64,000 bases of DNA from Nitrospira sp. (lineage in GTDB: Bacteria; Nitrospirota; Nitrospiria; Nitrospirales; Nitrospiraceae), in assembly GCA_016873495.1 (NCBI GenBank), contig VGXC01000009.1, forward strand, positions 1 through 64,000. The letters are read 5' to 3'. The notes under the pieces are model-generated. The model searched no databases. It saw nothing but the letters and a program-made list of their open reading frames with translations, and had not been told where the DNA came from. The translations under genes and the position numbers were made by a program. The number at the start of each line of letters is the position of its first letter. Position 1 is the stretch's first letter. Below, piece after piece: positions 30,024 through 52,822 of the stretch.

Positions 30024-31222
30024 TCCCCCGCCTGCTGTTCCCATAAATGAGGAGACCGAAACCGGTCGACGATCTGAAAGAACCGATCTTTCGTCAAACC
30101 GAGATAGTCGAGGATTTCCGCGAAGTATTTCCTGGGAAACTCCCCGTCGAACCGCCGCACCAACGCGACGCCTTCTTCGCGGGTGATATGTCCGTGATGG
30201 ATTTCCTGACAGGCGTCGTACGTGGCCCGGCCCAGCCCGAACTTGACGAAGGCCGTCCAATAGTTGAAACCGTCGATCTTGTCGTCGAGGCTGCTGTACT
30301 TGCTGTAGGTGCCTTCCGACCGCTCCGGGTTGGCCTGGAAGCCCGTGTGTTCGACGGCATAATAGTAGGCCTCCTGGGGAATCCATTTGATGTAGTACCC
30401 CAGAAAATGAAACTCCAGTTTGGCCTCGGCCAAGGCCTTGCCGTCGGCCGGCAGATAGGTCGCGAGATCCGCCATCGAGAGCTTGTGTTCGGCCAGAATG
30501 TGCTCGATCGGCACGCCGCCGAGGTGGAACCGCGTCGCGTCATACCGCAGCCGGAATCCCGGCGCGTCGTCGCTGTCCGTGAAGCCGCTCTGCCGATCCA
30601 CGGGCACACGCTGGCCGTACTGGCCTGGCGATTCACCGTAAAACACCAATTTGATCCCGTGCTTCAAGGCCATCTTCGGCGCAAAGGTCTTTTGCCCGAG
30701 AATGAAGGGCTGGAAGGGATGCAACAGGTTTTCGAAAGCCAGCCGCGTCAACAGGCGATGCACTCGCCCATTCGGCGTGAAGAGGCAATTGTCGAACCCG
30801 CCGACGTGAATCCAGTTCTGGAGATTCTTCCAGCCGATCTCCGTGTAGAGATGCGGCGCCCAGGTGACGGTCAAGGGATTCATCCCGTACTTATATTTGA
30901 GTAGATGGGCCGCCATGCCGCTGTCTTTGCCGCCGCTGCCGGGCACCAGCACATCGTAGCCTCCGTCGCGCCGGCGGTAGCGATCGAGCAACACGAGCAA
31001 TTCTTTTTCCCGTTGTGCCCAGTCAATCTCGCGGTTCACCTTGTCCATTTGACGGCAAGCCAGGCAGATGCCCTCGGCATCGATGGGCAGCGTGTCTTTT
31101 CTCGAGTCCGGTCGATGTTCGTATTCGTTGACTGAGAGCGGTTTCTGGTTGGACAAGACACACCGCCGGCAAAACGTGACCTCGCAGGGGAGCCCCCACT
31201 GTGCCGCGTTTTCACCGGACAT
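29996..31222 (-). CDS. N-acetyl sugar amidotransferase, WbpG/PseA family
   Basis: 408 aa. Two Cys pairs (Cys18-Cys21, Cys53-Cys56) flank an N-terminal metal site. The ATP-pyrophosphatase P-loop PGSGGKDS lies at 94-101. The body continues WAPHLYTEIGWKNLQNW, FTPNGRVHRLLTRLAFEN and LVFYGESPGQYG. In known members (WbpG of Pseudomonas, PseA and PtmG of Campylobacter) the enzyme converts an N-acetyl group to acetamidino using ammonia or glutamine. It therefore suits nonulosonate or diamino-sugar decoration. A HisF-like partner exists at 40076-40945, about 10 kb upstream. ATG at 31222 with CCAGGATC upstream. Confidence 0.87.
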   Translation of the reverse strand: MSGENAAQWGLPCEVTFCRRCVLSNQKPLSVNEYEHRPDSRKDTLPIDAEGICLACRQMDKVNREIDWAQREKELLVLLDRYRRRDGGYDVLVPGSGGKDSGMAAHLLKYKYGMNPLTVTWAPHLYTEIGWKNLQNWIHVGGFDNCLFTPNGRVHRLLTRLAFENLLHPFQPFILGQKTFAPKMALKHGIKLVFYGESPGQYGQRVPVDRQSGFTDSDDAPGFRLRYDATRFHLGGVPIEHILAEHKLSMADLATYLPADGKALAEAKLEFHFLGYYIKWIPQEAYYYAVEHTGFQANPERSEGTYSKYSSLDDKIDGFNYWTAFVKFGLGRATYDACQEIHHGHITREEGVALVRRFDGEFPRKYFAEILDYLGLTKDRFFQIVDRFRSPHLWEQQAGEWRLKHQVL

Positions 31223-33642: not shown

Positions 33643-34791
33643 CTAATAGGTGAGCGATTTCACGAGCAGTCGCTCGTCGATCGCACAGGTGGCCAGAATG
33701 TCCACGATGCGGTCGCTGGCCTTCCCGTCTCCGTACGGATTTTTCATGCCGACGAGCGATTTTTTGAACTCCGGAGACATGGCCCGGCGCAGGGCGCGCA
33801 GGATCTCTCGGCGATCGTGCTCCACGTTGATGACGTTCCGCCCTTGGAGCCGCCCCTGCTGCCGACGGCCGATGTTGACGCAGGGCAATTCGAAGGACGG
33901 CGCTTCCAGCAATCCGCTGGACGAATTCCCCACGATGACGGATGCCACCCGCATCAAGCCGGCGTACAGCCGCCGGGGGACGTTGCGCTCGACGCGGAGC
34001 CAAGGGCCGCGAAACGCGTCAATCTTTTCGCGCACCACCGTGCTGCCCGCATCGTTGTTGGGATAGATGATGACCGTTTGTTCCTTCAATTCCGCCAGCA
34101 CGCTCAACGTCATTTCGATTTGCTCGGCCGCCGACCTGGCCTGCTCCGTGACCGGATGTTGCACCATTAAAATAATCGGCCGATCGAGCGAAAATCGCAG
34201 ATGCTTCGCCACGTCCTTGGCTGACTCATAGTCGGCGCCCAACAGTTCGTCGAGCTGCGGAGCGCCGACATTGTGCACGCGAAAGGCCTCTTCTCCCGAT
34301 CGGCGAAGCCGCTCGACGGCATCGTCGTTGGCGGCAAAATGGATGTGCGCGTACCGCGCGATCGCATGCCGCGTCTGGCCGTCGATATTGCCCGAGACCT
34401 CGCCGGCTTGAATATGCGCCACCGGGATATTGCCGTGCGCGCCGGCAATGGCGGCCATGAGCTGCTCGCCCCGATCCCCCGCCAGCAGAATGATGTCCGG
34501 CTGCACGCGCTCCAGGGTATCCACGAAGGAGGAGAGAAAAATGCCGAGCGACTTGGCCATGGTGGCGTTGGTATAGCCGTCCAAGGCCATGAAGATTTTC
34601 TGATCGACTCGAAAGCCGTCCGCGACGATTTCTCTGAGGCTGGATCCGAATTCGGGCAGCAGGTGCATGTTGGTCGCCACCAACACATAGTCCAAACGAG
34701 GATGCCGGTCGATGCGCGCCAGGACCGGACGGATGTAACCCCACTCGCCGCGCGAACCGGTGACCACCAGAATCTTTCGTGTCGCGCTCAC
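33643..34791 (-). CDS. UDP-GlcNAc 2-epimerase (hydrolysing), NeuC/LegG type
   Basis: 382 aa. The order is VVTGSRGEWGYIRPVL at the N-terminus (about residues 8-23), AHIQAGEVSGNIDGQTRHAI (about 120-140), MVQHPVTEQ and VIVGNSSSGLLEAP (about 290-303), which are the donor and catalytic motifs of hydrolysing 2-epimerases. The reaction releases a ManNAc-type sugar from a UDP- or GDP-linked GlcNAc-type substrate. That sugar feeds the adjacent NeuB-1. GTG at 34791 overlaps the NeuB-1 stop as GTGA. Confidence 0.9.
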   Translation of the reverse strand: MSATRKILVVTGSRGEWGYIRPVLARIDRHPRLDYVLVATNMHLLPEFGSSLREIVADGFRVDQKIFMALDGYTNATMAKSLGIFLSSFVDTLERVQPDIILLAGDRGEQLMAAIAGAHGNIPVAHIQAGEVSGNIDGQTRHAIARYAHIHFAANDDAVERLRRSGEEAFRVHNVGAPQLDELLGADYESAKDVAKHLRFSLDRPIILMVQHPVTEQARSAAEQIEMTLSVLAELKEQTVIIYPNNDAGSTVVREKIDAFRGPWLRVERNVPRRLYAGLMRVASVIVGNSSSGLLEAPSFELPCVNIGRRQQGRLQGRNVINVEHDRREILRALRRAMSPEFKKSLVGMKNPYGDGKASDRIVDILATCAIDERLLVKSLTY

Positions 34792-35819
34792 TGCAAGTCC
34801 TCCCACCGCAGCAACGTGTTGGGCGCGATCCGCTTCCGAGCCGTTTTGCCGATCACGTCGGGGAGACGCTTCGACGGAATGCCCGTGCCGGGCCGCTTGG
34901 TCCATACCATGTCCGGCGTGATCGTCTGCCCGGCCTCGATGGCCGTGAGCGCCACCACGCTGCGGAAGGCCCACTCGCGAATTTGCCCCTCGCGCGAGTG
35001 GACGCGCTTCTCGCTCCCCATCGCTTTCTCGATCTTTCGAATTCCGCAGACCAATTCGTGCAGTTCCGCCATGTCGATGGACACCGACTGATCGGGGCCC
35101 GGCTGGAGCTTGTCGAGAATCACATGCTTCTCGATGATGCAGGCGCCCAACGTCACCGCGGCATAGCAGGTATAGAGGTCCGGCGTGTGGTCGGAATGGC
35201 CGATCGCCAGATCGGGATACCGCGTCTGCATCGTGCGGATCACGCCCAGATTGATGTCTTCGTAGACCGGAGGATATTCGGAGACGCAGTTAAGCAGCGC
35301 GACGGAGGCTCCTTCCTGCCGCAGCGCAGCCGCCGTATCGTCGATTTCCTCCAAGGTGCACATGCCGGTCGACAGGATCATCGGTTTCTTGAATCGCGCG
35401 ATCTTGCGCAACGAGGGGATGTCCGTCATCTCGCCCGATCCGATCTTGAAGGCTGGCACCCCCAGCTCGTTCAACTCCGCCGCCGCCTTGTAACTGAAGG
35501 GCGTGCAGAGATATTGAATCCCGGCGGCTTCGCATGTCCGCATCAGCGCTTCGTGGTCCGCCAATCGCAGCGCATGTTTCTTCAGAAACTCGTAGAGCGG
35601 TTCCTGAAAATTGTCCGACATGGGAATGTCGGGCAGCATTTCTTCATCGGGCAGATGATGTTGGAATTTGATCGCGTCCGCACCCGCCAACTTGGCCGTC
35701 CGCACCATCTCCTTGGCGACGGCCAGATCGCCCAGATGATTGTCGCAGGCCTCGGCCACGATATACACGGGCTGCCCCGGGCCGATCCGGCGTGGTCCGA
35801 TGTGCATCATCGGCGTCAT
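34788..35819 (-). CDS. Nonulosonate synthase NeuB/LegI family (copy 1)
   Basis: 343 aa. TIM-barrel NeuB domain (AEACDNHLGDL 22-32, KFQHHLPDEE 51-60, FKIGSGEMTDIPSL near 127-140, IEKHVILDK near 228) is followed by a C-terminal SAF/antifreeze-like domain (about 285-343, KRPGTGIPSKRLPDVIG). It condenses phosphoenolpyruvate with a 6-carbon amino sugar (from the adjacent NeuC) to a 9-carbon 3-deoxy acid. ATG at 35819, five bases after the carbamoyltransferase 2 stop. The SAF linker residues differ from copy 2. Confidence 0.9.
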   Translation of the reverse strand: MTPMMHIGPRRIGPGQPVYIVAEACDNHLGDLAVAKEMVRTAKLAGADAIKFQHHLPDEEMLPDIPMSDNFQEPLYEFLKKHALRLADHEALMRTCEAAGIQYLCTPFSYKAAAELNELGVPAFKIGSGEMTDIPSLRKIARFKKPMILSTGMCTLEEIDDTAAALRQEGASVALLNCVSEYPPVYEDINLGVIRTMQTRYPDLAIGHSDHTPDLYTCYAAVTLGACIIEKHVILDKLQPGPDQSVSIDMAELHELVCGIRKIEKAMGSEKRVHSREGQIREWAFRSVVALTAIEAGQTITPDMVWTKRPGTGIPSKRLPDVIGKTARKRIAPNTLLRWEDLQ

Positions 35820-40075: not shown

Positions 40076-40945
40076 TTAGGCGCCCGCGGCACAGGTTGAT
40101 GCCGGGCGGCAGCGCACCTGACGCTGCTGGAGAAAGTCCTTGATGGTCGGAAGGGTAGTGTCGGCGATCCGGCCGACGGACCGCGGCCGGCGAAGAAATT
40201 CCGTGTTGCCTTCGACCATGTCCGGCCCCCCCGCTCCCAGTACCTTCGCGACATGATAATGAAGTATCGCTCCCAGACAGACCGCGTCGGCCTGTCCTTC
40301 CGTCAACACCGCATGGACATGATCGAGCGTTCCGGCGCCGCCACAGGCGATGACCGGCACGCTGACGCGACGCGCGATGGCGCTTGTGAGCGACACGTCG
40401 AATCCCCTCCCGGTCCCTTCGCGATCCACCGAGGTGATCAAGAGTTCGCCCGCACCGAGCTCGGCGGCCCGGACAGCCCACTCGACGGCGTCGAGCCCCG
40501 TCGCCTGCCGCCCATTGTCCGTGTAAGCCGCGTAACGTCCGTCAGGCTGCTTGATCGCTTCGATGGACACCACGATCGTCGAGGAGCCGAACCGCGTGGC
40601 CGCCTCCGTAATCAAGGCCGGGCGCTGCACCGCCGCCGTATTCAACGCGACTCGGTCGGCCCCGGCTTGCAACGCGGCCTGAATGTCTTCCAACGACCGC
40701 AACCCTCCGCCTACCGTCAAGGGAATGAAGATTTCGTCGGCGGTCCGCCTCACGATGTCCAACAGACTGTTCCGTTGATACAAGCTCGCCACGATATCCA
40801 TGTACAGCAGCTCGTCGGCGCCCTGCTCGTAGTAGTGGCGGGCGAAGTGCTCCGGACGGCCCAAGGCTCGCAGCCCTTCCAGGTGAATGCCCTTGACGAG
40901 GCTGGGCCCCTTGATATCGAGGCGCGGGATGATGCGAATCGGCAT
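40076..40945 (-). CDS. HisF-like cyclase/amidotransferase partner
   Basis: 289 aa TIM barrel. MPIRIIPRLDIKGPSLVKG, YMDIVASLYQRNSLLDIV, PLTVGGGLRSLEDIQ, VSIEAI, GELLITSVDREGTGRGFD and VIACGGAGTLDHV are HisF/HisA motifs; the closest kin are HisF2-type proteins of O-antigen loci. In Pseudomonas the WbpG-HisF2-HisH2 trio makes acetamidino sugars, with HisH as glutaminase and HisF as ammonia channel. No HisH is present here. The frame to 41263 is rejected because its first ~106 residues lie inside the LIC12162 gene. The C-terminal tail (RPASTCAAGA) is non-conserved. Confidence 0.84.
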   Translation of the reverse strand: MPIRIIPRLDIKGPSLVKGIHLEGLRALGRPEHFARHYYEQGADELLYMDIVASLYQRNSLLDIVRRTADEIFIPLTVGGGLRSLEDIQAALQAGADRVALNTAAVQRPALITEAATRFGSSTIVVSIEAIKQPDGRYAAYTDNGRQATGLDAVEWAVRAAELGAGELLITSVDREGTGRGFDVSLTSAIARRVSVPVIACGGAGTLDHVHAVLTEGQADAVCLGAILHYHVAKVLGAGGPDMVEGNTEFLRRPRSVGRIADTTLPTIKDFLQQRQVRCRPASTCAAGA

Positions 40946-40958
40946 GGCGTCTGCAGGA

Positions 40959-42773
40959 TTATCCAGCCGGTGCCAGCCCTTTACTGGTGGCCAACTCTTC
41001 TTCCAACGTTTCAGTCCAGCGGTCGAGCCAATCTTCACGGGCCAACGCATAGCGATCGATGAATCGCCGGCGAGCGTCTTGCACCACGGCGCTCCCCCAC
41101 CAACGAGACACCTCGTCGTAGGTCTCGCAGACTTTTGCCGCGGCCTGCCGGGGAGAGTCGAAGAGCATCCCGGCCATTCTGAGAAGATCGAGGGATTCTT
41201 TCGCGTCTGTTCTGGTTTCCCATTGTGTGGGATTCCAAAACGTGATGGTCGGCTTATTGGCAACCAAGGCTTCCAGGAAACTCGTTCCGCAATGATCCAC
41301 GACCACCAGCCGGCATTGTCCTAAGGCGTCGGGAAAGGCTTGGGCACGTTCGTCCCACTTGATCGTCGGAAAGCGGACTACGACGCGCCGCCGAATGTCA
41401 TGTCCGTACTCATGCACATATGGTCGAAATCGCACCACGCCCAACACGTGTGCGGGGAGCACATCGAGAAACTTCATGGCATCTTCGAGATAGTCGGCAA
41501 CTTGGCTGCCGACCGGCCAAGAACTAAAGCGGTAGAGGTACCGTGGGAGTGCGGTCGAGACAAAGAGAATTTCCGCAGGAGCGGACGATTCGGAGGGATT
41601 CGCGTAACGATGCAAGAGCGCGGAGAGGGTCGGATCGGGAAGGGATTGCACGCCCGATCCGTTTCCCTTGCCCCATCCCCACGTATAATACGAATCCGCC
41701 AGGCGCGCCTCATGCTGCTCACAGGCTAACGTACGATAGAGTCCATAGCCTCCGCCATATTGGACAGCCACCATCCGAGCGCCCTGCTCCGATGCCACCG
41801 CTGCTTGATACTTGAATCGTTCGTCAAAGTACCATCCGAACGACGACACGACGACGGAGGGCACGCCGGACATGCTGCGCGCAGCAGCCTGATGCAATAG
41901 GTCGAACCCTTCAAGGTAGAGCGAGGGGAAATTTCTCGAAAGGATTTGCGCGCACACTCGCTCAAACTCCGACACGCTCGGCATCGCGCAGAGACCCCGC
42001 CGCTCGTTGTTGAACGAGAGCGGTACGCTTTTCAATGCCTCCTCCGGCATAAATATTTTCATCGGCAGCACCTCGAATCCGCTTCTCTCCGCAAGCGACC
42101 ATCGTGCCGACCGACTCAGATGGGTGTCGCAGAGCGCGACACGTCCTTTATTAAGGACGTCCCGAACACGTGCTTGGACGAACTCGCCTCCTCGCATGGC
42201 AGCTTTGCGCCAGACCGATAGGGCAGCCCGTTCCCTCTTTGCGTCCCCCGGTTTCGCCTCCAAGGCATCGAAGTCTTTTTCCGGAAACGTTCGTCCGAGC
42301 TCGCACAGCAATTGGGAGAAGAGCTGCTGGTTGAACGGATCGTCAAGGGCTTGTTCGATGAATTCGATCGTCGTGTTGGGGACGCGGTAGGCTGACGGAG
42401 CGAGGACGAATGTGTCGAGATGGTCGTACCGTCTGAACGCCTCGCTGAGGTGTGCGTATCGGTCGTACATAATGTGCAGATAGTGCATCAGCCACGGCCC
42501 GACCAAGATGCGCCAGAATCTCTGCCGGTACGAGACCCGATGCATCGTATTGAGATACTCCGCAAGACACGCCAGCCACCGCTCCCCCAACTCATCGAGA
42601 TAGCGGGCGGCCTCGGCATAGCGCTCGCGATCATCCCATGGATTGGGCATGACCTGGTACTTCAATCCCCGCCATTCCGCTTCTCGATCGGCTCGGAGAC
42701 ACCAGGGTCCGAGGAAGAGGATTTCCTGTTTTTTGTCCCAAAATTCAGGGAGGGCGGTAGTGGCCAGAAACAT
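40959..42773 (-). CDS. LIC12162-type putative transferase
   Basis: 604 aa. It begins MFLATTALPEFWDKKQEILFLGPWCLRADR, the family opening (residues 1-30) of the surface-carbohydrate transferase family first defined in Leptospira (TIGR04331). The middle region is helical, with FDLLHQAAARSMSGVPSVVVSSFGWYFDERFK. The C-terminal third looks like a GT-B donor domain (EILFVSTALPRYLYRFS, VVRFRPYVHEYGHDIRR, CRLVVVDHCGTSFLEALVANKPTITFW). The gene occurs in nonulosonate loci and may transfer the CMP-sugar. Start ATG at 42773; 51 bases from the radical SAM stop without clear signals. Confidence 0.78.
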   Translation of the reverse strand: MFLATTALPEFWDKKQEILFLGPWCLRADREAEWRGLKYQVMPNPWDDRERYAEAARYLDELGERWLACLAEYLNTMHRVSYRQRFWRILVGPWLMHYLHIMYDRYAHLSEAFRRYDHLDTFVLAPSAYRVPNTTIEFIEQALDDPFNQQLFSQLLCELGRTFPEKDFDALEAKPGDAKRERAALSVWRKAAMRGGEFVQARVRDVLNKGRVALCDTHLSRSARWSLAERSGFEVLPMKIFMPEEALKSVPLSFNNERRGLCAMPSVSEFERVCAQILSRNFPSLYLEGFDLLHQAAARSMSGVPSVVVSSFGWYFDERFKYQAAVASEQGARMVAVQYGGGYGLYRTLACEQHEARLADSYYTWGWGKGNGSGVQSLPDPTLSALLHRYANPSESSAPAEILFVSTALPRYLYRFSSWPVGSQVADYLEDAMKFLDVLPAHVLGVVRFRPYVHEYGHDIRRRVVVRFPTIKWDERAQAFPDALGQCRLVVVDHCGTSFLEALVANKPTITFWNPTQWETRTDAKESLDLLRMAGMLFDSPRQAAAKVCETYDEVSRWWGSAVVQDARRRFIDRYALAREDWLDRWTETLEEELATSKGLAPAG

Positions 42774-42824: not shown

Positions 42825-44579
42825 TTACCGCCCCAATCTTAATGGCATCATCATTGCCTCTGTATTCGTCTTCGGTTTCGGGGCCACATCGCGCATCACA
42901 TGCCGCAACGATCGGTAGTCTCTATGGATTTGACGGGACTTGAACGGCCACGTCACAAGCTCCCACAAGTGAATGAAGAACACCCGCGTGGGGGCACGGC
43001 GATATTGAGACCATAGGGTCCTGGTCCAAATAGCCAATCCTCGGATCGGATACAACGCCTGTAGCAGCAACGGGTGGTGGGCTACGGTTTGACGATTGAA
43101 GTAGCCGCCCTTTTCGTAGTCGGCTTCCAACTCGCGAACTGTTCCGTTAGGAGGTTGCGAGGCACGGCGGTGTACGGCATGATGCCAGTGCACCGTCGTC
43201 TCAAATAGTAATCTTGTTCTCCAACTTTGCACTGCGAGATACGGATACTCTGTAAAATTGATGAATTTTGTATCATCGCCCGCGTCAATGTCGGAGATTT
43301 CGAGCAAATACGCTTCCTCTTCCTGCAAACTAATCCCGATCATGCCTTTGGCTCTCGCATATTCATAAACGGGAGTGCCCGGCAATGCCTGAATATAATT
43401 GACGCTCAAGTACTTGGCCGGCGGCTCGGGCAAAAACTCCGTGATTCGTTTGACCATCTCTATGGTCTCTTCCAGCGTTCGTCGATTCTCCCCGGGCATG
43501 CCTAGGACCAGTTGATAGATGGTCGAGAGTCCCGTTTCGTGCATCCATCGCGCGGCATTGTCATTGTCTTCGAGGTCGAGCTTCTTCTCCATGACCTCGA
43601 GGATATCGGGACTGCCGGTTTCAAATCCGAAGTACAGGGACACGCACCCGGCGTCTTTCATGCGCCGGAGCAAATCCCGATCCACACTGCATACTCGGAC
43701 CCCTCCGACATGCCACAGTATATCGAGTGGCTTGATGAGGCGGATCAATTCCTCCGTGGCCTTTCGGTCCGATCCAAAGTTTTCATCTCCGAACTGGATG
43801 AAGCCGACGTTATAGCGGTTTTTGAGATAGTTGATCCGTTCGACGACTTTGCCCGGTGGAACTTGACGAAACCCCTTGTCCCACCGATGACAGAATGTGC
43901 AGCGAGCCACGCAGCCTTTCGCCGAGACGACCGTCGCCATCTTCTGGCCTTTGCGATGCGGCTCGTGGCTTCGCGGGTCGGCCGCGAAACTTTCGCGTGC
44001 AAACGGATCGGCAATAAAATTACGAATGTTGGAATGGGTCTCCAGGATGGAGAAATCCGGATCGAGCAATTCATGGGCGGGGATTGCGGCCTCATAGCCG
44101 GTGAAGATCATCTCCCCCTTCGGATCAAGATAGGTGATGCCCTTGATCTTCTCCAACTGAGAAAAGTCATCATGCCCCACATGCTCTCGATAGTAACGGG
44201 CCAGATTAACGATGATTCGTTCGCCCTCTCCGATGACACAGACATCGATGTGGCACAGCCGATGCAAAATCTCCGCGCTCGCCGCCAGATTGCCTCCAAG
44301 AACAAGTTTCGTCGAGGGGAGGACCGCTCTGACTGCCTGGCAAAACTTCTTCACATACCCGTATGCCGTGGACACGACCGCGCTGATGCCGATCACATCA
44401 GGAGCTTCGGCCTGCAATCGGTCCAGGACTTGAGCGAACGATGGCCGTAACCCGTCGATATCCAGAAAGACCGGATCGTATCCCGCCTCCCTCAATGCTT
44501 GAAGTACCGCCAGTGAGCCAAACGGAGGGTAGTCGGTCGGCGTCGGACGAATTGGTGTCGTGCAGATGACGATTTTCAT
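42825..44579 (-). CDS. B12-binding-type radical SAM protein (second)
   Basis: 584 aa. N-terminal Rossmann-like region (about 1-150: PPFGSLAVLQALREAGYDPVFLDIDG, VLGGNLAAS, VCVIGEGE), no DxHxxG ligand motif. The radical SAM core has Cys223, Cys227, Cys230 (KGCVARCTFC), then FIQFGDENFGSD and SLYFGFETGSPDILEVMEKK. The C-terminal region (~500-584) is basic. Substrate unknown. The ATG at 44579 overlaps the NeuA stop (ATGA), so it is co-translated with the CMP-nonulosonate genes, suggesting that a sugar of that module is modified. Confidence 0.85.
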   Translation of the reverse strand: MKIVICTTPIRPTPTDYPPFGSLAVLQALREAGYDPVFLDIDGLRPSFAQVLDRLQAEAPDVIGISAVVSTAYGYVKKFCQAVRAVLPSTKLVLGGNLAASAEILHRLCHIDVCVIGEGERIIVNLARYYREHVGHDDFSQLEKIKGITYLDPKGEMIFTGYEAAIPAHELLDPDFSILETHSNIRNFIADPFARESFAADPRSHEPHRKGQKMATVVSAKGCVARCTFCHRWDKGFRQVPPGKVVERINYLKNRYNVGFIQFGDENFGSDRKATEELIRLIKPLDILWHVGGVRVCSVDRDLLRRMKDAGCVSLYFGFETGSPDILEVMEKKLDLEDNDNAARWMHETGLSTIYQLVLGMPGENRRTLEETIEMVKRITEFLPEPPAKYLSVNYIQALPGTPVYEYARAKGMIGISLQEEEAYLLEISDIDAGDDTKFINFTEYPYLAVQSWRTRLLFETTVHWHHAVHRRASQPPNGTVRELEADYEKGGYFNRQTVAHHPLLLQALYPIRGLAIWTRTLWSQYRRAPTRVFFIHLWELVTWPFKSRQIHRDYRSLRHVMRDVAPKPKTNTEAMMMPLRLGR

Positions 44580-45196
44580 GGCGAGTGCCGTTTCATCAGC
44601 ACCTGTTCGGCCAGCCAGAAGTCGAACTCGTCGTCGATCTCGACGTTCTGTTCGCGGTCGAGTTCCATCCGTTCAATGTGTGTCCCGTAGCGATCACCTT
44701 GGCGCAGCAACTCCGCCTTCACCACGTAGATATTGCCGTCGTCGTAGAAGAAGCCGGGAATGTCCTGACGGCGCAACTCGTTCCTCCCGTACTCGGTGAA
44801 CTTGCAGACGAAGCCCGTGGCCAGCGAATCGGCCCGAGTCTCGAGAAAACGGGCGATGCACCGGTCGATCAAATCAGCATCCCGAATCGGCGAGGTGGCT
44901 TGCAGGAGCACGACGACATCGGCCGGAATGTGCGTGAGGACTTGCTGCAAGACGCTGAGGGTCGTGGCTTCATCCGTCGCCAGGTCCTTGGGGCGATCGA
45001 GCACCTCGGCGCCGTAGCGGCGCGCCATGGCCGCAATTTCGGCATCTTCCGTCGAGACGACGAACCGATCCAGCAATTTTGACGACTTGGCGGATTCGAT
45101 CGTCCAGGCGATCAGCGGCTTGCCGTGCATCTCCCGCAAGTTTTTCCTTGGAATCCCCTTGCTGCCGCCCCGCGCCGGAGTGATGCCGAGGATCAT
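44576..45196 (-). CDS. CMP-nonulosonate cytidylyltransferase NeuA/PtmB type
   Basis: 206 aa. The N-terminus ITPARGGSKGIPRKNLREM (5-23) is the CTP-binding signature of acylneuraminate cytidylyltransferases. VVSTEDAEIAAMARRYGAEV and VVLLQATSPIRDADLIDRC follow. No C-terminal SGNH or phosphatase domain is attached. It activates a 9-carbon 3-deoxy acid as CMP-sugar, presumably the product of NeuB-2 or NeuB-1. ATG at 45196, seven bases after the deacetylase stop. Partner of the NeuB-2/PseG-like/LmbE module. Confidence 0.9.
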   Translation of the reverse strand: MILGITPARGGSKGIPRKNLREMHGKPLIAWTIESAKSSKLLDRFVVSTEDAEIAAMARRYGAEVLDRPKDLATDEATTLSVLQQVLTHIPADVVVLLQATSPIRDADLIDRCIARFLETRADSLATGFVCKFTEYGRNELRRQDIPGFFYDDGNIYVVKAELLRQGDRYGTHIERMELDREQNVEIDDEFDFWLAEQVLMKRHSP

Positions 45197-45202: not shown

Positions 45203-45868
45203 TCATGCCCACTGATCGCGAATGACGGCAAAGGCCTCGGCGGCGGAGAATCCGATTTCCATGCCGCGCTTCCAGGCCGTCACTTCGAGGCCCTTCGCGG
45301 ACCGCGGATGCGGGAAGGCGCGCAACTCGCGGCTGTAGGCTTGCAGCGCCTCGATCTTCTTGGCCAGGAACCCGTCGATATTGACATAATGATTCGGCTG
45401 GAAGGCATACTCCGGAAAGGGCGGCGCCTGATCGGTGGAGGACGGCACTTCGTAACTCAGCAGCCTCGGGACCTTGTGCGACGCGATCACGCGACAGGCG
45501 ACCATCGATGCCTGAAAGACCGCGCGATGGTCCTGATTGGAATCGCCTCGGTGATGGGTATAGACCAGGTCAGGTTTCAGCGAGAGCACGCAGGCTTCGA
45601 GCGGGACGATGATGTCGAGGAGGCGCTCGTCCAGCAATTCGTCGCGCAGATCGAGAAACCGCAGATCCTGATAACCCAAAATCTCCGCCGCGCGGCGCGC
45701 CGCCGACTTTTCTTCTTCCACCACCCGCGGATCGAACTGGTGATTGTAGGCCCGCTTGCAGACGATGCAGGCCGTCACCTGATCGCCCGCCGCCACGTGC
45801 TTGGCGATGGTCCCGCCGACCCCCAGCACTTCGTCATCCATATGTGCGGAGATGACCAGAACCTTCAT
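45203..45868 (-). CDS. LmbE/PIG-L family deacetylase
   Basis: 221 aa. ISAHMDDEVLGVGG (6-19, AHxDDE zinc motif) and HHRGDSNQDHRAV near residue 108 supply the zinc and base residues of the PIG-L fold. The family removes N-acetyl groups from GlcNAc-type sugars and related mycothiol-like compounds. In the nonulosonate module it would unmask an amino group for other acyl or amidino groups. ATG at 45868 overlaps the PseG-like stop (ATGA). Confidence 0.85.
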   Translation of the reverse strand: MKVLVISAHMDDEVLGVGGTIAKHVAAGDQVTACIVCKRAYNHQFDPRVVEEEKSAARRAAEILGYQDLRFLDLRDELLDERLLDIIVPLEACVLSLKPDLVYTHHRGDSNQDHRAVFQASMVACRVIASHKVPRLLSYEVPSSTDQAPPFPEYAFQPNHYVNIDGFLAKKIEALQAYSRELRAFPHPRSAKGLEVTAWKRGMEIGFSAAEAFAVIRDQWA

Positions 45869-46860
45869 ACTCGTGCCACCCCGAGACGAGCCCATCGTTC
45901 TTTAATCAGCGCCGCCACCCTGCTGGATCCACACCCATCGACCAGCGCGCGGCCGCGCAACGACAGGGCCTCGCGCCTCGCCGGATCGGCAGCCAGCGCG
46001 TCGACCGCCTGGGCGATCTGAGGCTCGTGTACGTCCCCGCCGAATCCTAGATTCACCGCTGCGCCGGCCTGTGCCAGGCGATGAGCCGTACCGACTTCAA
46101 ATCGCTCGCCGCACACGACGACGGCCGGTGTCCCCGCACAGGCGAGTTCGAACAGGGTCAACCCGCCGGCGGTGATCGCCAGATCGGCTCGAACCATCAA
46201 TGCCCCCATGTTCGGGGCATTGCGGACGATCGTCAGAGGAACCGGGCAACCGGCAGCGGCTTCGCGCAGATTCTCGTCGTGGCGAAAGGCCGGGCCGAGC
46301 ACGACGGTGACATGCGGCCGGGCGCGAAGATGGGTGAGGCTCCTGACAATCTTCGGCGTAAAGCCGTAGGTGTCGCTGCCGCCTTGCGTCACCAGCAATG
46401 CCTCGACTCGCGGATTCACCGGGCGCGGCAAGCGGTGCAGCGCCTGAAACTCCTCGCGCAATGCGATGTACTCTGGGTCCATGACGGCCCCGGCGACGGG
46501 ATACAGGACGTTGATGGCGAGATCGGCGCATGACGCCCCGTCGCCGTCGTCGTCCATCGTTACCAGCAGCCCACAGCAATCCCTGATCCGCCGCAGGTAC
46601 GACGGATCGTTCCGCAGTTTGTTGACGACGATCACATCGGGACGAAACGCGCGAAGCGCGGCCACCTCGGCATCAAGATCGGGCACAAGAGCGGATCGAT
46701 AGCCGCGGCCGGCAATGACCGCACAGGCTTCGTCGCCGCCGGACAACAAGAATCGCGTCTCGTCGCCACAGCGAGCGAACTCGTCCGCCAAGGCCACGGC
46801 GCCCCAGACGTCGCCCATCCCCTGCTGATGGTTCCCTTCCGTCCGAAAGGCGATGCGCAT
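45865..46860 (-). CDS. PseG-like UDP-sugar hydrolase with altered active site
   Basis: 331 aa GT-B fold. MRIAFRTEGN, then GMGDVWGAVALADEF (14-28) stands where PseG and SpsG have GxGHxxRxxALA. Asp17 sits in the place of the PseG catalytic His17. Later motifs agree with the family: LVTQGGSDTYGFTPKI, VVLGPAFRHDENLREAA, VRADLAITAGGLTLFELACAGTPAVVV. PseG hydrolyses UDP-2,4-diacetamido-2,4,6-trideoxy-altrose to release the sugar for the NeuB-type synthase. Here the substrate or chemistry may differ. The ATG at 46860 forms TGATG with the NeuB-2 stop. A TTG at 46863 is rejected. Confidence 0.8.
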   Translation of the reverse strand: MRIAFRTEGNHQQGMGDVWGAVALADEFARCGDETRFLLSGGDEACAVIAGRGYRSALVPDLDAEVAALRAFRPDVIVVNKLRNDPSYLRRIRDCCGLLVTMDDDGDGASCADLAINVLYPVAGAVMDPEYIALREEFQALHRLPRPVNPRVEALLVTQGGSDTYGFTPKIVRSLTHLRARPHVTVVLGPAFRHDENLREAAAGCPVPLTIVRNAPNMGALMVRADLAITAGGLTLFELACAGTPAVVVCGERFEVGTAHRLAQAGAAVNLGFGGDVHEPQIAQAVDALAADPARREALSLRGRALVDGCGSSRVAALIKERWARLGVARV

Positions 46861-47897
46861 CAATCGACCATATCCCAGGTAATGACTTCGTCTTCCGCAA
46901 TATCGCGTTTCGCCCGACGACCCGCAAGAAGCTCGACGAGCTTCGGGGGCACGCCGGTGCCGGGACGCTTGACGATGAGATCGTCCGGCCTCAACCGTTC
47001 ACCCGCGCGCAAGGCCCGCCGGGCAATCGCGCTCTTGCGCGTCTCCTGGCGCATATCGCGCTCCGAGGGGACTGGACGTTTCACTCCGTCGCCCAACGCG
47101 GCTTCGAGTTCGCGTATCTCCCTGACCAGCGCCGCCAATTCTGCCGGGTCGGCGGAGAAGGGCGCATCGGGAACCGGCAAGCGCTTATCCAGCGTGAAAT
47201 GCTTTTCGATGACGCAGGCGCCGAGGGCCACCGCGCCCAGCGACGCGCTGGACGACAGCGTATGATCGGAAAAGCCGACCGGAATGCCGAACGCCCGTCG
47301 ATAACTCTCGATGACGCGGAGATTGACCGCGCCGAGGTCTCGCACGGGGTAATTCGACACGCACTGCAAGACGACGAGTTGCTCGTTCCCCGTCGCCTGC
47401 AAGCAGGCGACGGCCTCCGCCACCTCCGCCATCGTGCCCATGCCGGTCGAAAAGATAACGGGTTTTTTGCGCTCCCCCACGTAGGCGAGAAAGGGCAGGT
47501 TCGTCAGATCGTCGGACCCGATCTTGTGGAGGGGGACGTTCAATCGTTCGAGCAGGTCGACGTCGTCATAATAGCTGGGCGTGGAGAAGGCCGAAATCCC
47601 GCGTGTCCGCGCATGCTCGAAGAGGAGCCGATGCGCTTCCTCGGAGATTTCGTATTGCCGAAACTCGTCGAATTGATTCGTGGCGCCGGCTTCGGCAGGA
47701 AAGTTCGTCCGGCGCGACGTGACGGTGGCGGCTTTGAACGTCTGGAACTTGACGGCGTCAGCACCGGACTCGACGGCGGCATCGATCGAGGCCTTGCCTT
47801 CTTCGAGGGTGCGGAAGTTATAGCCGATTTCCGCGATCACGAAAACCGGCTGCCCCCCGCCGATCAATCGATCGCCGACGCGAATCGGCTTGCCCAT
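46860..47897 (-). CDS. Nonulosonate synthase NeuB family (copy 2)
   Basis: 345 aa. NeuB barrel (VFVIAEIGYNFRTLEEGKASI near 18-38, KFQTFKAATV, HKIGSDDLTNLPFL, IFSTGMGTMAEV, VSNYPVRDLGAVN, IEKHFTLDK) is followed by a C-terminal SAF domain (KRPGTGVPPKLVELLAGRRAK). Condenses PEP with a six-carbon amino sugar. The motif KIGSDDLTN differs from KIGSGEMTD in copy 1, so the two probably have different sugars. ATG at 47897, eight bases after the WbqC stop. Its product would be activated by the NeuA two genes downstream. Confidence 0.9.
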   Translation of the reverse strand: MGKPIRVGDRLIGGGQPVFVIAEIGYNFRTLEEGKASIDAAVESGADAVKFQTFKAATVTSRRTNFPAEAGATNQFDEFRQYEISEEAHRLLFEHARTRGISAFSTPSYYDDVDLLERLNVPLHKIGSDDLTNLPFLAYVGERKKPVIFSTGMGTMAEVAEAVACLQATGNEQLVVLQCVSNYPVRDLGAVNLRVIESYRRAFGIPVGFSDHTLSSSASLGAVALGACVIEKHFTLDKRLPVPDAPFSADPAELAALVREIRELEAALGDGVKRPVPSERDMRQETRKSAIARRALRAGERLRPDDLIVKRPGTGVPPKLVELLAGRRAKRDIAEDEVITWDMVD

Positions 47898-47904: not shown

Positions 47905-48624
47905 TCACTCAAAGACCTGCTCCATGGTGGGGACGCCGATCCCGCGGAGGATATCCCCGCCGACCGGCCCATGATTGAACAGCACATCGACGGCGGCCAT
48001 ACAGGGCAGGAACGGCTCGTGGAGTTGCCGATAGATGGGGTGATGAAATTCCTGGTAACGCACGCCGATGCCGGATCGGGAAAAGGCCGCCTCGTCCAAG
48101 TACGTGCGCCCGGAGATTCCGGACAGGTAGGTCTGCGCCCCGACCGCCTGGCAGAGATTCAGCAACAACTCGCTCCGTTGCCCCGAGACGTGCAGGTCCG
48201 AGGCGCGAAGGATGCGAATCGAGATGTCGAAGGCTTCCAACAGGTAGCCGATGATCCGCTCGTTCAGCTCGCTGAGGCGCGACCATGAAGTCCGGCACAC
48301 GTCTTCAAAAAACCCGGCGTGCGTGTCCCAAAAGGGCGCTTTGCGATACAGGGTTTCCAGACTGTGCCAGTACTTGCCGGCCCAGCGAGGACTGCCGATA
48401 TTGTTGATCTCGACGGTGCGGATCGGTTGCTCGGCGCGGCCCTTCGTGAGAACCGGAACGGTGACCCACACGGCTCCTTGCGGTCCGCGCAAGCGATTGC
48501 GGTTCTGAAAATAATTCTTCCGAAACTGCACCTGATCGAGCAAGACCAAGACGTCTGCTTGAGCGGCCTTGTGCAGGAAACCCAACCACGGCAGATGTTC
48601 CGGCTGATGGATGGTCACGATCAC
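47905..48624 (-). CDS. WbqC family protein
   Basis: 239 aa. IVTIHQPEHLPWLGFLHKAAQADVLVLLDQVQFRKNYFQNRNRL (the family opening) and the later HSLETLYRKAPFWD, FFEDVC identify the WbqC family (PF08889). WbqC proteins are found in O-antigen and pseudaminic/legionaminic loci and are proposed to act in the amino-sugar step. Structure and mechanism are not settled, so I give no reaction. The GTG at 48624 is preferred; another GTG lies two codons further in, and the ATG at 48672 would overlap the upstream gene by 17 bases. Confidence 0.83.
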   Translation of the reverse strand: MIVTIHQPEHLPWLGFLHKAAQADVLVLLDQVQFRKNYFQNRNRLRGPQGAVWVTVPVLTKGRAEQPIRTVEINNIGSPRWAGKYWHSLETLYRKAPFWDTHAGFFEDVCRTSWSRLSELNERIIGYLLEAFDISIRILRASDLHVSGQRSELLLNLCQAVGAQTYLSGISGRTYLDEAAFSRSGIGVRYQEFHHPIYRQLHEPFLPCMAAVDVLFNHGPVGGDILRGIGVPTMEQVFE

Positions 48625-48655
48625 GGAAGAACCGGCTCGGGCTCCCGAAGGGCGC

Positions 48656-49714
48656 TCAACGGCCCACGACATCTGGACGGTTGATCAGCTTGTCCACGGG
48701 TATGTAGGCGTCGCCCATGCGTTCGATGACCCGCTGGGTCTTGCGCGGCAAATAGCAGTGTTTACACGGCTCCAAGGACGCGACCCCTTGATGGCGCCGA
48801 TGAACGGCCCGGGCTTCCTCCATTTTGGGCCCATGCCACACCTCGTAGAGCGATTCATGGTTGGCATCGCCCAGCGGATGCAGGCCCATTTCGTCGTTGG
48901 AGCAGAGCAGGATCTTGCCGTCCGAGCCGATGACCAGCCGTTGATACAGGACGGGGCAGGTGAAGTTCTCCCAATACTCGATATTCTCGTCTTTGCGCAG
49001 ATAGTCGACCAATGGATTGGACGCGATATGGTCCACATACGGCTCGAACAGCTCGTAAAATTCTCGCGCGCATTCTTTGATAGAGGGCCACACGGGTTGA
49101 ATCTTGATGACGGGTTTGACGGAGCCGGCGTCATCTTTGATCCGTTTGTACGTTTTGATCTTCTCGACCGCCTCTTCGAATTTCGCCGGCGCGCGAATCT
49201 CTTCATAGGTCTTGCCCATGCCGTCGAACGAGATCGTGATCCAGTCCAGCCCCACCGCCATCAGTTCGCGAAACATCGCCGGGTTCAACCGCAAGCCGTT
49301 GGTCAGGGTCGAGACTTCTTTGATCCCGGCGCGCTTGGCATAGGCGACCATCTCGACGATGTGCTTGTTGAGGAAGGGTTCGCCGCGCAGACTCAGACGG
49401 ATCGAATAACATCCGTACCGCGCGCATTCGTCCACGATCTTTTTGAAGAGGTCGAAGGACATGAGTTTTTTCGTGACGCTCCGGTCGAACTCCTCGGTGA
49501 TCGTGTAGCACATGGGGCAGGTCATGTCGCAGGCGGCGGAGAGTTCCACGTCCACATGGTCGGGGAACCGGCTGGTGTGGCGAAGCTGGGGATAGACGTA
49601 CCATTTGAAGCGGTTCGCCAGATAGGCCAGTCTGTGCCCGTGGCCGCGGTGCCAATTGAACTGGAACCGCTTCCAACGGGAGAGGTGAATTTGATCCTTG
49701 TTGATCTGCACCAC
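48656..49714 (-). CDS. Radical SAM/SPASM protein (second)
   Basis: 352 aa. Cys62, Cys66, Cys69 (CDMTCPMC) bind the radical SAM cluster. IRLSLRGEPFLNKHIVEM and STLTNGLRLN are core motifs. The C-terminal SPASM region has further Cys (FTCPVLYQR, KILLCSND, PCKHCYLPRK). Similar in plan to the protein at 25194-26249. The gene sits between an NDP-sugar epimerase and the WbqC/NeuB-2 group. The start is a GTG at 49714 eight bases after the epimerase stop, without a clear ribosome binding site. Confidence 0.82.
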   Translation of the reverse strand: MVQINKDQIHLSRWKRFQFNWHRGHGHRLAYLANRFKWYVYPQLRHTSRFPDHVDVELSAACDMTCPMCYTITEEFDRSVTKKLMSFDLFKKIVDECARYGCYSIRLSLRGEPFLNKHIVEMVAYAKRAGIKEVSTLTNGLRLNPAMFRELMAVGLDWITISFDGMGKTYEEIRAPAKFEEAVEKIKTYKRIKDDAGSVKPVIKIQPVWPSIKECAREFYELFEPYVDHIASNPLVDYLRKDENIEYWENFTCPVLYQRLVIGSDGKILLCSNDEMGLHPLGDANHESLYEVWHGPKMEEARAVHRRHQGVASLEPCKHCYLPRKTQRVIERMGDAYIPVDKLINRPDVVGR

Positions 49715-49721: not shown

Positions 49722-50669
49722 CTATTTCAGACTCTGATCCACGCGGGCCCACTCCGCGTCGGCCGTCGCGACCTTGGCCTTGTACCATTCGACATAGCGC
49801 CGCACGCCTTCTTCGAACGAGACCTTCGGCTCCCAGCCCAGCTCGTTTTTCGCCAACTGGCTGGCCACTTCCTTGCCGCCGAAATCGCCGGGCCGCGCCG
49901 GAACATATTCGATCTTCACGTTGCCGATGACCTTTTGGACGGTTTCGGCGATCTGCTTGATCGTTACCTTCTCCGTGCCGTCCAAGTTATAAATCTTGTT
50001 CTGCGCGACCGTTTTCAACGCCAGGACGTTGCCTTCGGCCAAATCCTCGACGTACACGAATTTTCTGAATTGCGATCCGTCTCCGGCGATGGTGAGCGGC
50101 TCCCCCCTGAGCGCCTTCTGGACGAAGATCGGGACGACCGCGCCGTCGCGCGCGCGCGGGCCGTAGGGAATGCCGTACCGAAGAATCGTCACCGGCACGT
50201 TGTACAGCTTGCTATAGGATTGGCAGTAATACTCGGACGCGATCTTGGTCGCGGTATAGAGGTGCGCGGGCGGATGCAGCGGGGTTTGTTCGTCCACATA
50301 CTGCTCGGTCACCTCGCTATAAACCCAGGTGGTGCTCCCGTAGATGACCCGCTTCACCGCGCCCCGGGACCGCCGGACCGCTTCCAGGACATTGATGGTT
50401 CCCCGCACGTTGATGGCTTCGGACGCATGGGGGTCTTCGAACACGTCTTTGACGTCCGCCACGGCGCCGAGATGGAAGACGTCGGTGATCCCGCTGAACG
50501 CCATGCGGAGCGCCTCGAGATCGAGCAGACTGCCCTGATAGTATTCGATGTCCTTGCGATACGTCGGCATGACCATATCGTACACGCGCACCTCGATGCC
50601 CTTGGCCCTGAGGATATCGACCACATGTGAGCCGATGAAACCCGAACCGCCCGTGACCAACACTTTCAT
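49722..50669 (-). CDS. NAD-dependent NDP-sugar epimerase/dehydratase
   Basis: 315 aa extended SDR. LVTGGSGFIGSHVVDIL (4-20), HLGAVADVKDVFEDP, STTWVYSE and YTATK (catalytic YxxxK, near 143-147) are present. FVYVEDLAEG and GRRYVEWY-like C-terminal motifs follow. The Thr at the second residue of YTATK and GATVADVK-type loop resemble UDP-glucose 4-epimerase and related 4,6-modifying SDRs. NDP-sugar not determinable. ATG at 50669 with AAAGGACAGA upstream. Confidence 0.85.
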   Translation of the reverse strand: MKVLVTGGSGFIGSHVVDILRAKGIEVRVYDMVMPTYRKDIEYYQGSLLDLEALRMAFSGITDVFHLGAVADVKDVFEDPHASEAINVRGTINVLEAVRRSRGAVKRVIYGSTTWVYSEVTEQYVDEQTPLHPPAHLYTATKIASEYYCQSYSKLYNVPVTILRYGIPYGPRARDGAVVPIFVQKALRGEPLTIAGDGSQFRKFVYVEDLAEGNVLALKTVAQNKIYNLDGTEKVTIKQIAETVQKVIGNVKIEYVPARPGDFGGKEVASQLAKNELGWEPKVSFEEGVRRYVEWYKAKVATADAEWARVDQSLK

Positions 50670-50690: not shown

Positions 50691-51677
50691 CTATCGACCG
50701 CCTTCAGGGTTGTAGTACAGCGGCACGCACCAATGGTGTTGCGAGATCCATTCGGCATGCGGGAATGTCCCCGGCCGCTTCATGATGGCATGACACAATT
50801 TGTCGTACACCTTTCCGGTCGACTTCTCGATCGGCTCGAAGACGATGTACTTGTACAGGCCCGACACCATGCCGTCGGGCATCCGCAACCGCTTGGGATG
50901 CTTGGGATTCAGATGCTTCTCGGCGATTTCGTTTTTCCACGCCGTGATCGTCTCCAACCGCTCGGCTTGGACGAGGCCCAGCGCCGCCGTAAATTCCGAC
51001 ATCCGGTAGTTCAAGCCGTCCACCTCGTGCTCGAATTTTCCATAGTTGCGGTATTTCTTGGCAAAGGCGATCAGATCGGGCCGCTGCGAGACCAGCATCC
51101 CGCCTTCGCCGGTCGAGACGGACTTCGTCGCGTAAAAAGAATACGCCCCCGCGTCGCCGAACGTGCCGGGCTTGCGCCCGTTCCACGATGCGCCATGCGC
51201 ATGCGCACAGTCTTCGAGCAACACGATGCCCTTCGCACGGCAGAATTCGGCGATCTTGAGCGTATCGAACGCGATGTGCCCCCCGATATGCACCAGCCAG
51301 ACCGCCGCCAGGTCATGCTGGGCCGCCGCCGACACGACGGCGTCATAGCTCAGACACAAATCTTCGCGATTGCAATCGCCGAAGATCACTTCCCCGCCAG
51401 CCTTCACGACGGACAGCGGCGTGGCCATGAACGTGTTGGTCGGGCACAGCACCTTACGACCGCGAATGTGGAAATACTCGAGGCAGGCCATGGCCGCGCC
51501 GGCCCAGCTCGACATGGCGACGCCGGGGGTCCCATTCCAGGCTTCCCACCTTTCCTCGAACTGCTGCGTGAATTTCCCTTCCGCCCACTTCTGGCTCGCA
51601 AAGATCTCATCCCAATATGCGTGGACCCGTTTTGTGTCCGAGGGATCGAAGCCGATTCGAAAGCTGCTAAAGTCCAT
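50691..51677 (-). CDS. DegT/DnrJ/EryC1 sugar aminotransferase
   Basis: 328 aa. MSSWAGAAMACLEYF (about 53-67, analogous to SSGTAAL), IVLLEDCAHAHGASW (Asp for the PLP nitrogen) and YSFYATKSVSTGEGGML (Schiff-base Lys in ATK) define the sugar-aminotransferase family. It aminates a keto group of an NDP-sugar, probably provided by an epimerase or dehydratase in this locus. The ATG at 51677 is preceded by GGGAGGACA, strong and well placed. The longer frame to 52085 is inside the upstream gene. Confidence 0.87.
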   Translation of the reverse strand: MDFSSFRIGFDPSDTKRVHAYWDEIFASQKWAEGKFTQQFEERWEAWNGTPGVAMSSWAGAAMACLEYFHIRGRKVLCPTNTFMATPLSVVKAGGEVIFGDCNREDLCLSYDAVVSAAAQHDLAAVWLVHIGGHIAFDTLKIAEFCRAKGIVLLEDCAHAHGASWNGRKPGTFGDAGAYSFYATKSVSTGEGGMLVSQRPDLIAFAKKYRNYGKFEHEVDGLNYRMSEFTAALGLVQAERLETITAWKNEIAEKHLNPKHPKRLRMPDGMVSGLYKYIVFEPIEKSTGKVYDKLCHAIMKRPGTFPHAEWISQHHWCVPLYYNPEGGR

Positions 51678-51712
51678 TGTCCTCCCTTCCGTTCTCGCCC
51701 CCGTCACACCGC

Positions 51713-52822
51713 TTAGGCCGCCGGCCTGTTTGCCTGCGCCACCCAGCCGGCCGCGGCGTGGAGTTTGGTGATGTCGATGTCCGTCAGATCGCCTTGCTTC
51801 AACATCTCGATTACGCCTTGCCGGCTGTACCGCACTTCGATGGGCGCACCGAGACGATCCAACAAATCGCCGTGGACGGAAAAGGGCGAGGTGCCGAAGT
51901 TGAAGGGCATCGCGTCGGCGATGGGCCGGGTCGCGCGGAACCGACTCATCGCATGCGCGGGCCACGAAAACAGCAGCACCACGAGAGGCGAGAGGAGCCA
52001 GCAGAGGCCGCTCAACAGGGTCGTCGGGAGTTTGATCGTCAGCCGACGGACGGCCGTGACCGGCTTCAAGGGCCAGCGCTTCCACGGATTGTCCTCGTGA
52101 TCTTCATAAAGGTAGAGCGAGAGCCGGCCGTTCGGTTTCAGGACGCGGACCAACTCGCGCAGCCCCTGATCCGGATCGGTGGTATGGTGCAGGACGCCGA
52201 AGGAGTAGACGAAGTCGCACGACCCGTCTCGCAGAGGCACGGCCAGCACCGATCCTCTTATCACGTGCACGTTCGGCAGCCCTTCTGTCCGTTTGTAGGT
52301 CTGATACACGCCTTCGCTCAGGTCCAAACTGATCAACTCGACATCGGGATGCCGTCCGGCCATCCGTGCGGTGTCCGCACCGGTCCCTGAACCGGCTTCG
52401 AGTCCGATCGCGCCCCGCACGACAGGAGCCTTGAGGGCCCGCTCCATGGGATCGAGGTGGTTCAGGCCGGAGTCAGATGCCGGATACAACTGGTTCCAGA
52501 GGTGGCTGTAGACCTGGACCGTGGCCGCCGTCCGCTCGTCGGCATCCGGGGCCTGGGCGAACAACCAGGGCACGCCGCCCAAAATCGGATAGGTCGCGTG
52601 ACAGTCCGCGCAGGTCAAGGAGCCCGAGATGATCTCCACACCGGCGCACTCCTCGCAGGCCGCCGTGTCGGCGCCGAGCGCCGTTCCCATCCGGGCGCAC
52701 CGCTCCCGGCAGACGAATCGGCGATCGCCGATCAGCGGCGCGGGGCGGGTCTCCTGCACGGTCACCGCAAGCCCTCCCTCGCACCGCACGCAACGCAACA
52801 ATTCGACGAGCCGATACTTCAT
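51713..52822 (-). CDS. Methyltransferase with zinc ribbon and C-terminal membrane segment
   Basis: 369 aa. N-terminal Cys pairs (Cys11-Cys14, CEEC, CADC) form a zinc ribbon ending PILGGVPWLF. Motif I is GLEAGSGTGADTARMAG. FVYSFGVLHHTTDPDQGLREL is motif IV. After the methyltransferase domain there is a hydrophobic stretch of about 30 residues (LLSGLCWLLSPLVVLLFSW) that could anchor it to the membrane. The same plan occurs in the gene at 57048-58328. The acceptor may be lipid-linked. ATG at 52822 with AAGGG upstream. Confidence 0.8.
   Translation of the reverse strand: MKYRLVELLRCVRCEGGLAVTVQETRPAPLIGDRRFVCRERCARMGTALGADTAACEECAGVEIISGSLTCADCHATYPILGGVPWLFAQAPDADERTAATVQVYSHLWNQLYPASDSGLNHLDPMERALKAPVVRGAIGLEAGSGTGADTARMAGRHPDVELISLDLSEGVYQTYKRTEGLPNVHVIRGSVLAVPLRDGSCDFVYSFGVLHHTTDPDQGLRELVRVLKPNGRLSLYLYEDHEDNPWKRWPLKPVTAVRRLTIKLPTTLLSGLCWLLSPLVVLLFSWPAHAMSRFRATRPIADAMPFNFGTSPFSVHGDLLDRLGAPIEVRYSRQGVIEMLKQGDLTDIDITKLHAAAGWVAQANRPAA

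Follow-up and report, generated by a model that had tools for sequence, protein, structure and literature searches.

The window, by which we mean the whole 64,000-nucleotide stretch analysed here, carries on its minus strand a cassette of eight adjoining genes. In the direction of transcription these encode a DegT-type, PseC/LegC-like aminotransferase that scores below the family cut-offs (50691..52085, with translation probably beginning inside the ORF as listed), an NAD-dependent SDR resembling epimerases and 4,6-dehydratases (49722..50669), a radical SAM/SPASM protein (48656..49714), a WbqC-family protein (47905..48672), the nonulosonic-acid synthase NeuB1 with NeuB and SAF domains (46860..47897), a PseG/SpsG-like GT-B protein of 331 amino acids recognized by its PseG model match and its fold model (45865..46860), a PIG-L/LmbE de-N-acetylase with BshB2/BshB1 as best named models, below cut-off (45203..45868), and a NeuA-like CMP-sugar cytidylyltransferase with a CTP_transf_3 domain and PseF as best named model, again below cut-off (44576..45196). 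For NeuB1, start 47897 was chosen within an ORF open to an ATG at 47987. The PseG-like gene runs from an ATG at 46860 to a TGA at 45867–45865; the ORF lister had started it one codon upstream, at a TTG at 46863, and we judged the ATG the better start. Its start shares one nucleotide with the NeuB stop (TGATG) and its stop shares four with the PIG-L start (ATGA), so the coupling on both sides that had been noted from the letters of the DNA is real.

The unusual feature of this gene lies in codons 14–20 (46801..46821, minus strand), which encode the loop GMGDVWG, with Asp for His17 and Gly for Arg20. Residues 13–20 read Q13-G-M-G-D17-V-W-G20, with GAC at 46812–46810 for D17 and GGC at 46803–46801 for G20. 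A profile of 12 homologues matched Campylobacter jejuni PseG (3hbm) with an E value of 3.8e-22, and this alignment, read jointly with that of the homologues, placed D17 on H17, L82 on Y78 and F254 on N255 (3hbm numbering), with E255 in place of Q256. The codons and the alignment to 3hbm thus confirm the loop as the original prediction had read it, and a His merely displaced by alignment is excluded, as sister proteins have H11 and H17 together. In C. jejuni PseG we take His17 to be the proposed base, and Tyr78 and Asn255 to be residues that line the active site and are important there. The further claim that the rest of the fold is preserved holds, but His17 and the Arg are not alone in having changed: the positions of Y78 and N255 are replaced too.

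By family models, PseG (the equivalog TIGR03590) is the best named match for the window protein (98.4 bits, E value 5.4e-28, residues 1–250), under the NCBIfam cut-off of 153.55 bits. The hallmark GxGHxxR with His17 is absent, D17 and G20 standing in its place, as are the active-site Tyr78 and Asn255, replaced by L82 and F254. Near-full-length homologues at 1e-29 to 1e-38 place the protein in the broad PseG/SpsG-like superfamily. Two other assignments were rejected: MurG/GT28 by sequence (23.4 bits against a cut-off of 250.25; Pfam Glyco_tran_28_C 21.2 against 22) and a NeuC-type hydrolysing epimerase, Epimerase_2 (PF02350) and NeuC_NnaA (TIGR03568) not being among the families that match the window protein. 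An AlphaFold2 model built on 26 alignment rows had a mean pLDDT of 94.9 and placed D17 at the start of a helix (residues 16–30) that follows a strand (residues 2–7). Compared with VIA-align, this predicted structure has a GT-B fold like that of the PseG–UDP complex 3hbn (Z 25.7, rmsd 2.8, 262 residues; model 1–279 on chain 1–279) and lies nearer still to MurG 3s2u with UDP-GlcNAc (Z 31.0, rmsd 2.5, 310 residues). Foldseek likewise ranked MurG first and 3hbm 44th, PseG being shorter at its C-terminus.

Three relatives carry the same substitution. A scan of genome contigs, queried with an alignment of two rows, hit 82 stretches, two of which encode relatives: one in a Nitrospinales MAG (L048; genome G460; 43% identical to the window protein, loop GMGDITG) and one in a Nitrospirae MAG (L049; genome G461; 38%, GMGDVMG). 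The third lies on a tailed-phage-like contig (L046/L047; IMG/VR 3300028840_002691; 34%, GMGDLMG), so that identities to the window protein span about 34–43%; counted alongside the invariance of D17 and G20, the span is 36–43%. Q13, G14, M15, G16, D17 and G20 are invariant in all four proteins of this clade (hereafter D-type), giving a shared loop QGMGDxxG; thus 6 of the 8 residues at 13–20 are invariant compared to 66 of 331 overall (hypergeometric P ~0.001, with a few other 8-residue segments equally high). Towards the C-terminus, glycines 160, 161 and 233 and T235 are likewise kept in 4 of 4 and E238 in 3 of 4, the phage-like protein having Gln at the last position. The original prediction had asked whether a whole clade has kept the change, and it has: both D17 and G20 occur in every member, and with three independent Asp-bearing relatives a sequencing error at this codon is excluded. 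The swap of His for Asp is a real variant, neither an error nor an alignment shift.

Among 50 distinct aligned homologue stretches, which are best matches and not a random sample, positions 17 and 20 read His with Arg in 40, Asp with Gly in 4, Asp with Ser in 2 and His with Pro in 2, with no letter in the other 2. The two His–Pro stretches are probably MurG. Across the 46 PseG-like sequences, the two positions covary without exception, Arg being lost with Asp and retained with His.

The D17/G20 variant is rare in the collections searched. Single-protein searches of the viral contigs and phages returned no close relative of the window protein; the same search of plasmids matched 44 records, all below 60% identity, and the 6 that were inspected all have His (in L035 as the partial loop GHVMR). 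In genome searches across the family and the phylum, no further D17/G20 member appeared in 30 inspected places from a search that matched 47 of 395 genomes, among the inspected loci from 5 of 175 matching genomes, or in 10 inspected places from a search that matched 18 of 176 genomes; a search of 23 genomes gave a single match, to a genome that earlier searches had found. Searching viral DNA for a degenerate pattern of QGMGD hit 98 stretches, where the known contig was the only one to encode a relative, and repeat viral scans with queries A3 and A4 returned that contig and nothing else.

When columns 17 and 20 were masked before tree building, the window protein and its three D17/G20 relatives clustered together (support 91/86, not starred; 93/89 without the long row L036). 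They sit inside a strong clade (100/99) with three His-type proteins, from a Rhizobium plasmid (L033), a Neorhizobium plasmid (L034) and the window's own family (L039). These His-type sisters also have Leu, Phe and Glu at the positions of Y78, N255 and Q256, together with a DTYG motif. Because this His-bearing sister group shares them, the sugar-side positions probably changed first, with His/Arg giving way to Asp/Gly later in one branch; the opposite course, in which His and Arg were regained, would be less parsimonious. Elsewhere, a PseG-like group (L021, L023, L026 and L017) keeps His with Val or Leu at Y78 and Ile-Glu for Asn255-Gln256, and the sugar-side positions of the superfamily vary repeatedly.

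A second pair of Asp proteins, with the loop GTGDLMS, falls in another part of the tree (L040:1301-2290 and L041:7797-8795; the two genomes share a genus, which belongs to the same phylum as the window). The L040 gene is near a NeuB, and no NeuB match was found within 16 kb of the L041 gene. The AU test rejected a single origin of all six Asp proteins (p-AU 0.003, where L040 and L041 form a long branch and the group was named after its residues had been seen). Judged from the trees and this test, Asp with loss of Arg arose twice, separately.

We next turn to gene neighbourhoods, which were compared by phmmer and blastp against the window proteins, Pfam and ORF lists. Around all four D-type genes lie a DegT aminotransferase, a WbqC protein, NeuB, PIG-L and a CTP_transf_3 protein, with a relative of the radical SAM/SPASM protein in three. 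The window order is DegT, SDR, radical SAM, WbqC, NeuB, D-type, PIG-L, NeuA. The Nitrospinales cassette (L048) has DegT, NeuA, PIG-L, a CTP_transf_3/radical-SAM/SPASM fusion, WbqC, radical SAM, NeuB, D-type and a second cytidylyltransferase. The Nitrospirae cassette (L049) has the fusion, DegT, PIG-L, NeuA, radical SAM, WbqC, a short NeuB, D-type and a second cytidylyltransferase. The phage-like cassette (L047) has DegT, an SDR like that of the window, NeuB, WbqC, a second, short NeuB, D-type, PIG-L and a weak NeuA, and no relative of the window radical SAM protein was found in it. The fusions, single proteins with CTP_transf_3, radical SAM and SPASM parts, occur in two phyla (L048:4446-6164 and L049:3292-5013).

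His-type sister cassettes (L033, L034 and L043, the last being the same place as L039) hold SDR, radical SAM, NeuB, a His-bearing PseG, WbqC and PIG-L, with a CTP_transf_3 cytidylyltransferase between NeuB and PseG in L033. As these His-type sisters have the PIG-L, WbqC and NeuB cassette, its assembly predates the change to Asp. Leu or Val at 82, F254 and E255 are found in 7 of 7 PseG-like proteins of such cassettes, a count that excludes the Picosynechococcus plasmid locus L035, where PIG-L, NeuB and a PseG-like protein are present with no WbqC match.

The original prediction had suggested checking for a link to NeuB-2-type synthases. Every D-type gene belongs to a NeuB cassette, but a tie to one NeuB type is not supported and we reject it: the adjoining NeuB is 54% identical to that of the window in L048 and 31% in L049, and in both L049 and L047 it is short (about 290 amino acids). 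The short genes lie at L049:9110-9988 and L047:8797-9648, and no SAF domain was matched in the L049 protein. In both MAG cassettes, identity of the D-type protein to its window counterpart is 38–43%, making it less conserved than NeuA (63–68%) or the radical SAM protein (58–63%); it falls below PIG-L too and is the least conserved member except for the swapped NeuB of L049.

The phage-like cassette occupies positions 10675-31607 of IMGVR_UViG_3300028840_002691, a contig of 105 kb with a viral classification. Elsewhere on this contig, a 1053-amino-acid protein (L165:6141-9302) has hits to families of tail tape measure proteins (6e-8 and 2e-6), and it therefore seems that a tailed phage carries the D-type nonulosonic-acid pathway.

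Other sugar hydrolases in the same genomes bear on what the D-type protein does. NeuC (TIGR03568) had no match in the whole 105-kb phage-like record, itself possibly a fragment, or in genome G460, so that in both of these cassettes the candidate hydrolase is the D-type protein. In G461, NeuC scores over cut-off on another contig, with a weaker match about 30 kb from the cassette on its own contig. The window encodes a bona fide NeuC at 33643-34974 (396 bits, cut-off 235.9), an enzyme that might conceivably feed both synthases; it stands beside another NeuB in a second nonulosonic-acid module (33643-35819). In addition, all three D-type cellular genomes have a canonical His paralogue on a contig other than that of the D-type gene (L002, GFGHLRR, in G000; L053, GFGHLVR, in G460; L050, GFGHITR, in G461). 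The window's cluster also encodes a WbuX-type amidotransferase (29996-31222; above cut-off with 332 bits) and a WbuZ/HisF-like protein (40076-41263; 263.8 bits, below the cut-off of 299.7), which suggests that one of its sugars receives an acetamidino group.

We infer that the D-type protein is a working NDP-sugar hydrolase, with Asp17 as base or amine-binder, in an uncharacterized nonulosonic-acid pathway whose sugar is altered by PIG-L and WbqC, a reading to which we give about an even chance. Hydrolysis is our first choice because of the position of the gene, the residues kept in the C-terminal domain and the cassette. Asp is in principle a competent base. A UDP-sugar or other NDP-sugar would be bound in the GT-B cleft, water would displace the nucleotide at C1 as in PseG, and the freed amino-sugar would be handed directly to NeuB, the product of the overlapping gene. 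Asp17, where the first helix begins, could serve as general base, as holder of a positively charged amine, or both; Arg20 would lie one helical turn away, and its loss would remove a salt bridge and free the carboxylate. The pocket as a whole would have passed from basic and polar (H17, R20, Y78, N255, Q256) to hydrophobic with an acidic character (D17, G20, L82, F254, E255 and also E252), and a fitting substrate would be one from which the adjacent PIG-L has removed an N-acetyl group and to which WbqC has perhaps added an amino acid. Enzymes of the PseG type are described as removing UDP and so feeding NeuB-type synthases (PMC7910423). Of the three options in the original prediction (a different UDP-sugar, a different base or an inactive subunit), we lean towards a changed substrate, with Asp17 functional. 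Counting against hydrolysis, the positions important in PseG are all changed, which fits lost hydrolysis or a switch to transfer as well; the low conservation within the cassette, the Gln of the phage-like protein, the NeuC of the window and of G461, the His paralogues and the top fold match to MurG weigh in the same direction.

An unlikely alternative is that the D-type protein is a glycosyltransferase whose acceptor for the amino-sugar is particular to the cassette and is activated by Asp17 as base, PseG being itself built like a transferase that uses water. The fold ranking of MurG (Z 31.0) over PseG (Z 25.7) and the replacement of all three positions Y78, N255 and Q256 agree with this, as does human UGT2B10, where a His-to-Leu change at the catalytic His accompanies altered acceptor chemistry (PMC7781194). 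MurG's higher score, however, comes partly from a C-terminal part missing in PseG (282 residues), the D-type gene overlaps NeuB in the window and adjoins it in L048, L049 and L047, and no NeuC-type hydrolase was found in the L048 genome or the phage-like record.

It is also doubtful that the protein has lost catalysis and plays a structural or regulatory part alongside NeuB, PIG-L or the canonical PseG paralogue, with QGMGDxxG kept for binding. Such paralogues (L002, L050 and L053) do exist elsewhere in all three D-type cellular genomes, most of the other cassette proteins are better conserved than this one, and its catalytic positions are changed. Yet the loop around D17 is among its best conserved parts (6 of 8 residues invariant), loss of Arg20 accompanies each change of His to Asp, the paralogues lie on other contigs, and the phage-like record (which may be a fragment) shows no NeuC-family hydrolase. 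Finally, simple drift in a PseG copy that is being lost, or a fault of sequencing or assembly, might be suspected from a draft genome of 89 contigs and a PseG score below cut-off (98.4 against 153.55 bits), but is highly improbable given that both substitutions recur in three other contigs from separate sources, a conservation that already contradicts drift or error, and that the frame is intact, overlapped by genes on both sides and predicted with high confidence to fold.

Returning to the working hydrolase, a broader and rather speculative extension is that the cassette makes an undescribed class of nonulosonic acid with a free amine or amino acid, in which PIG-L would deacetylate, WbqC would aminoacylate as a BshC-like ligase, the radical SAM protein would edit the sugar and the acidic-pocket hydrolase would release it, a tailed phage carrying the pathway too. 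We found no description of a nonulosonic-acid cassette with WbqC, radical SAM and PIG-L in the open-access papers searched, nor any such pathway among open-access papers on WbqC as judged by title and start of abstract; a function for the WbqC protein did not turn up in them either. The catalytic His is taken as a hallmark of the PseG/SpsG family, and a replacement of His by Asp that nature has conserved, always coupled to a change at Arg20 and seen in two lineages, offers a ready test of the role of the base in transferase-like hydrolases and of how sugar specificity evolves. The cassette also points to sialic-acid-like sugars beyond the Neu, Leg and Pse schemes in uncultured Nitrospirota, Nitrospinota and a phage-like contig.

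Compared with known systems, the neighbours of the D-type gene recall bacillithiol synthesis, in which the BshB/BshC pair offers an analogy for deacetylation followed by amino-acid ligation by PIG-L and WbqC, as a hypothesis. PIG-L is nearest to the BshB2/BshB1 models but under both cut-offs. WbqC was predicted with confidence in one of five models (mean pLDDT 78.5), which was closest to BshC 4wbd (Z 14.0, 227 of 245 residues; next row 12.2) and also near class-I tRNA synthetase and nucleotidyltransferase folds. However, no WbqC–BshC link and no solved relative were found by sequence, Foldseek returned nothing at E ≤ 0.001 and the BshC model was absent from 245 genomes of the phylum; the modelled resemblance may serve as a lead only.

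The D-type protein itself is like MurG (3s2u, 1f0k; GT28) as its top structural match, the Gly-His of the first MurG helix aligning with the PseG loop, but it is far below the MurG cut-off by sequence and stands in a nonulosonic-acid, not a cell-wall, context. With C. jejuni PseG (3hbm/3hbn, TIGR03590), the UDP-2,4-diacetamido-2,4,6-trideoxy-beta-L-altropyranose hydrolase, it shares a GT-B fold over the whole chain, a GxG loop in the same place and a gene by a nonulosonic-acid synthase; it differs in D17, L82, F254, E255 and G20 for H17, Y78, N255, Q256 and R20 and in scoring below the family cut-off. The sps legionaminic-acid pathway of Bacillus subtilis, as far as the consulted text describes it, similarly joins a PseG-like step (SpsG) to an SpsE/NeuB synthase and an SpsF-type cytidylyltransferase, and the same text names no PIG-L, WbqC or radical SAM step, unlike the window cassette (PMC7439481). 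The His-type cassette L033, with NeuB, cytidylyltransferase and PseG in that order, matches the sps-type set as there described. Human UGT2B10 differs in having Leu for His, in being a transferase and in belonging to an unrelated pathway, but is a GT-B enzyme in which the catalytic His is naturally replaced and which is active on a changed class of substrate (PMC7781194).
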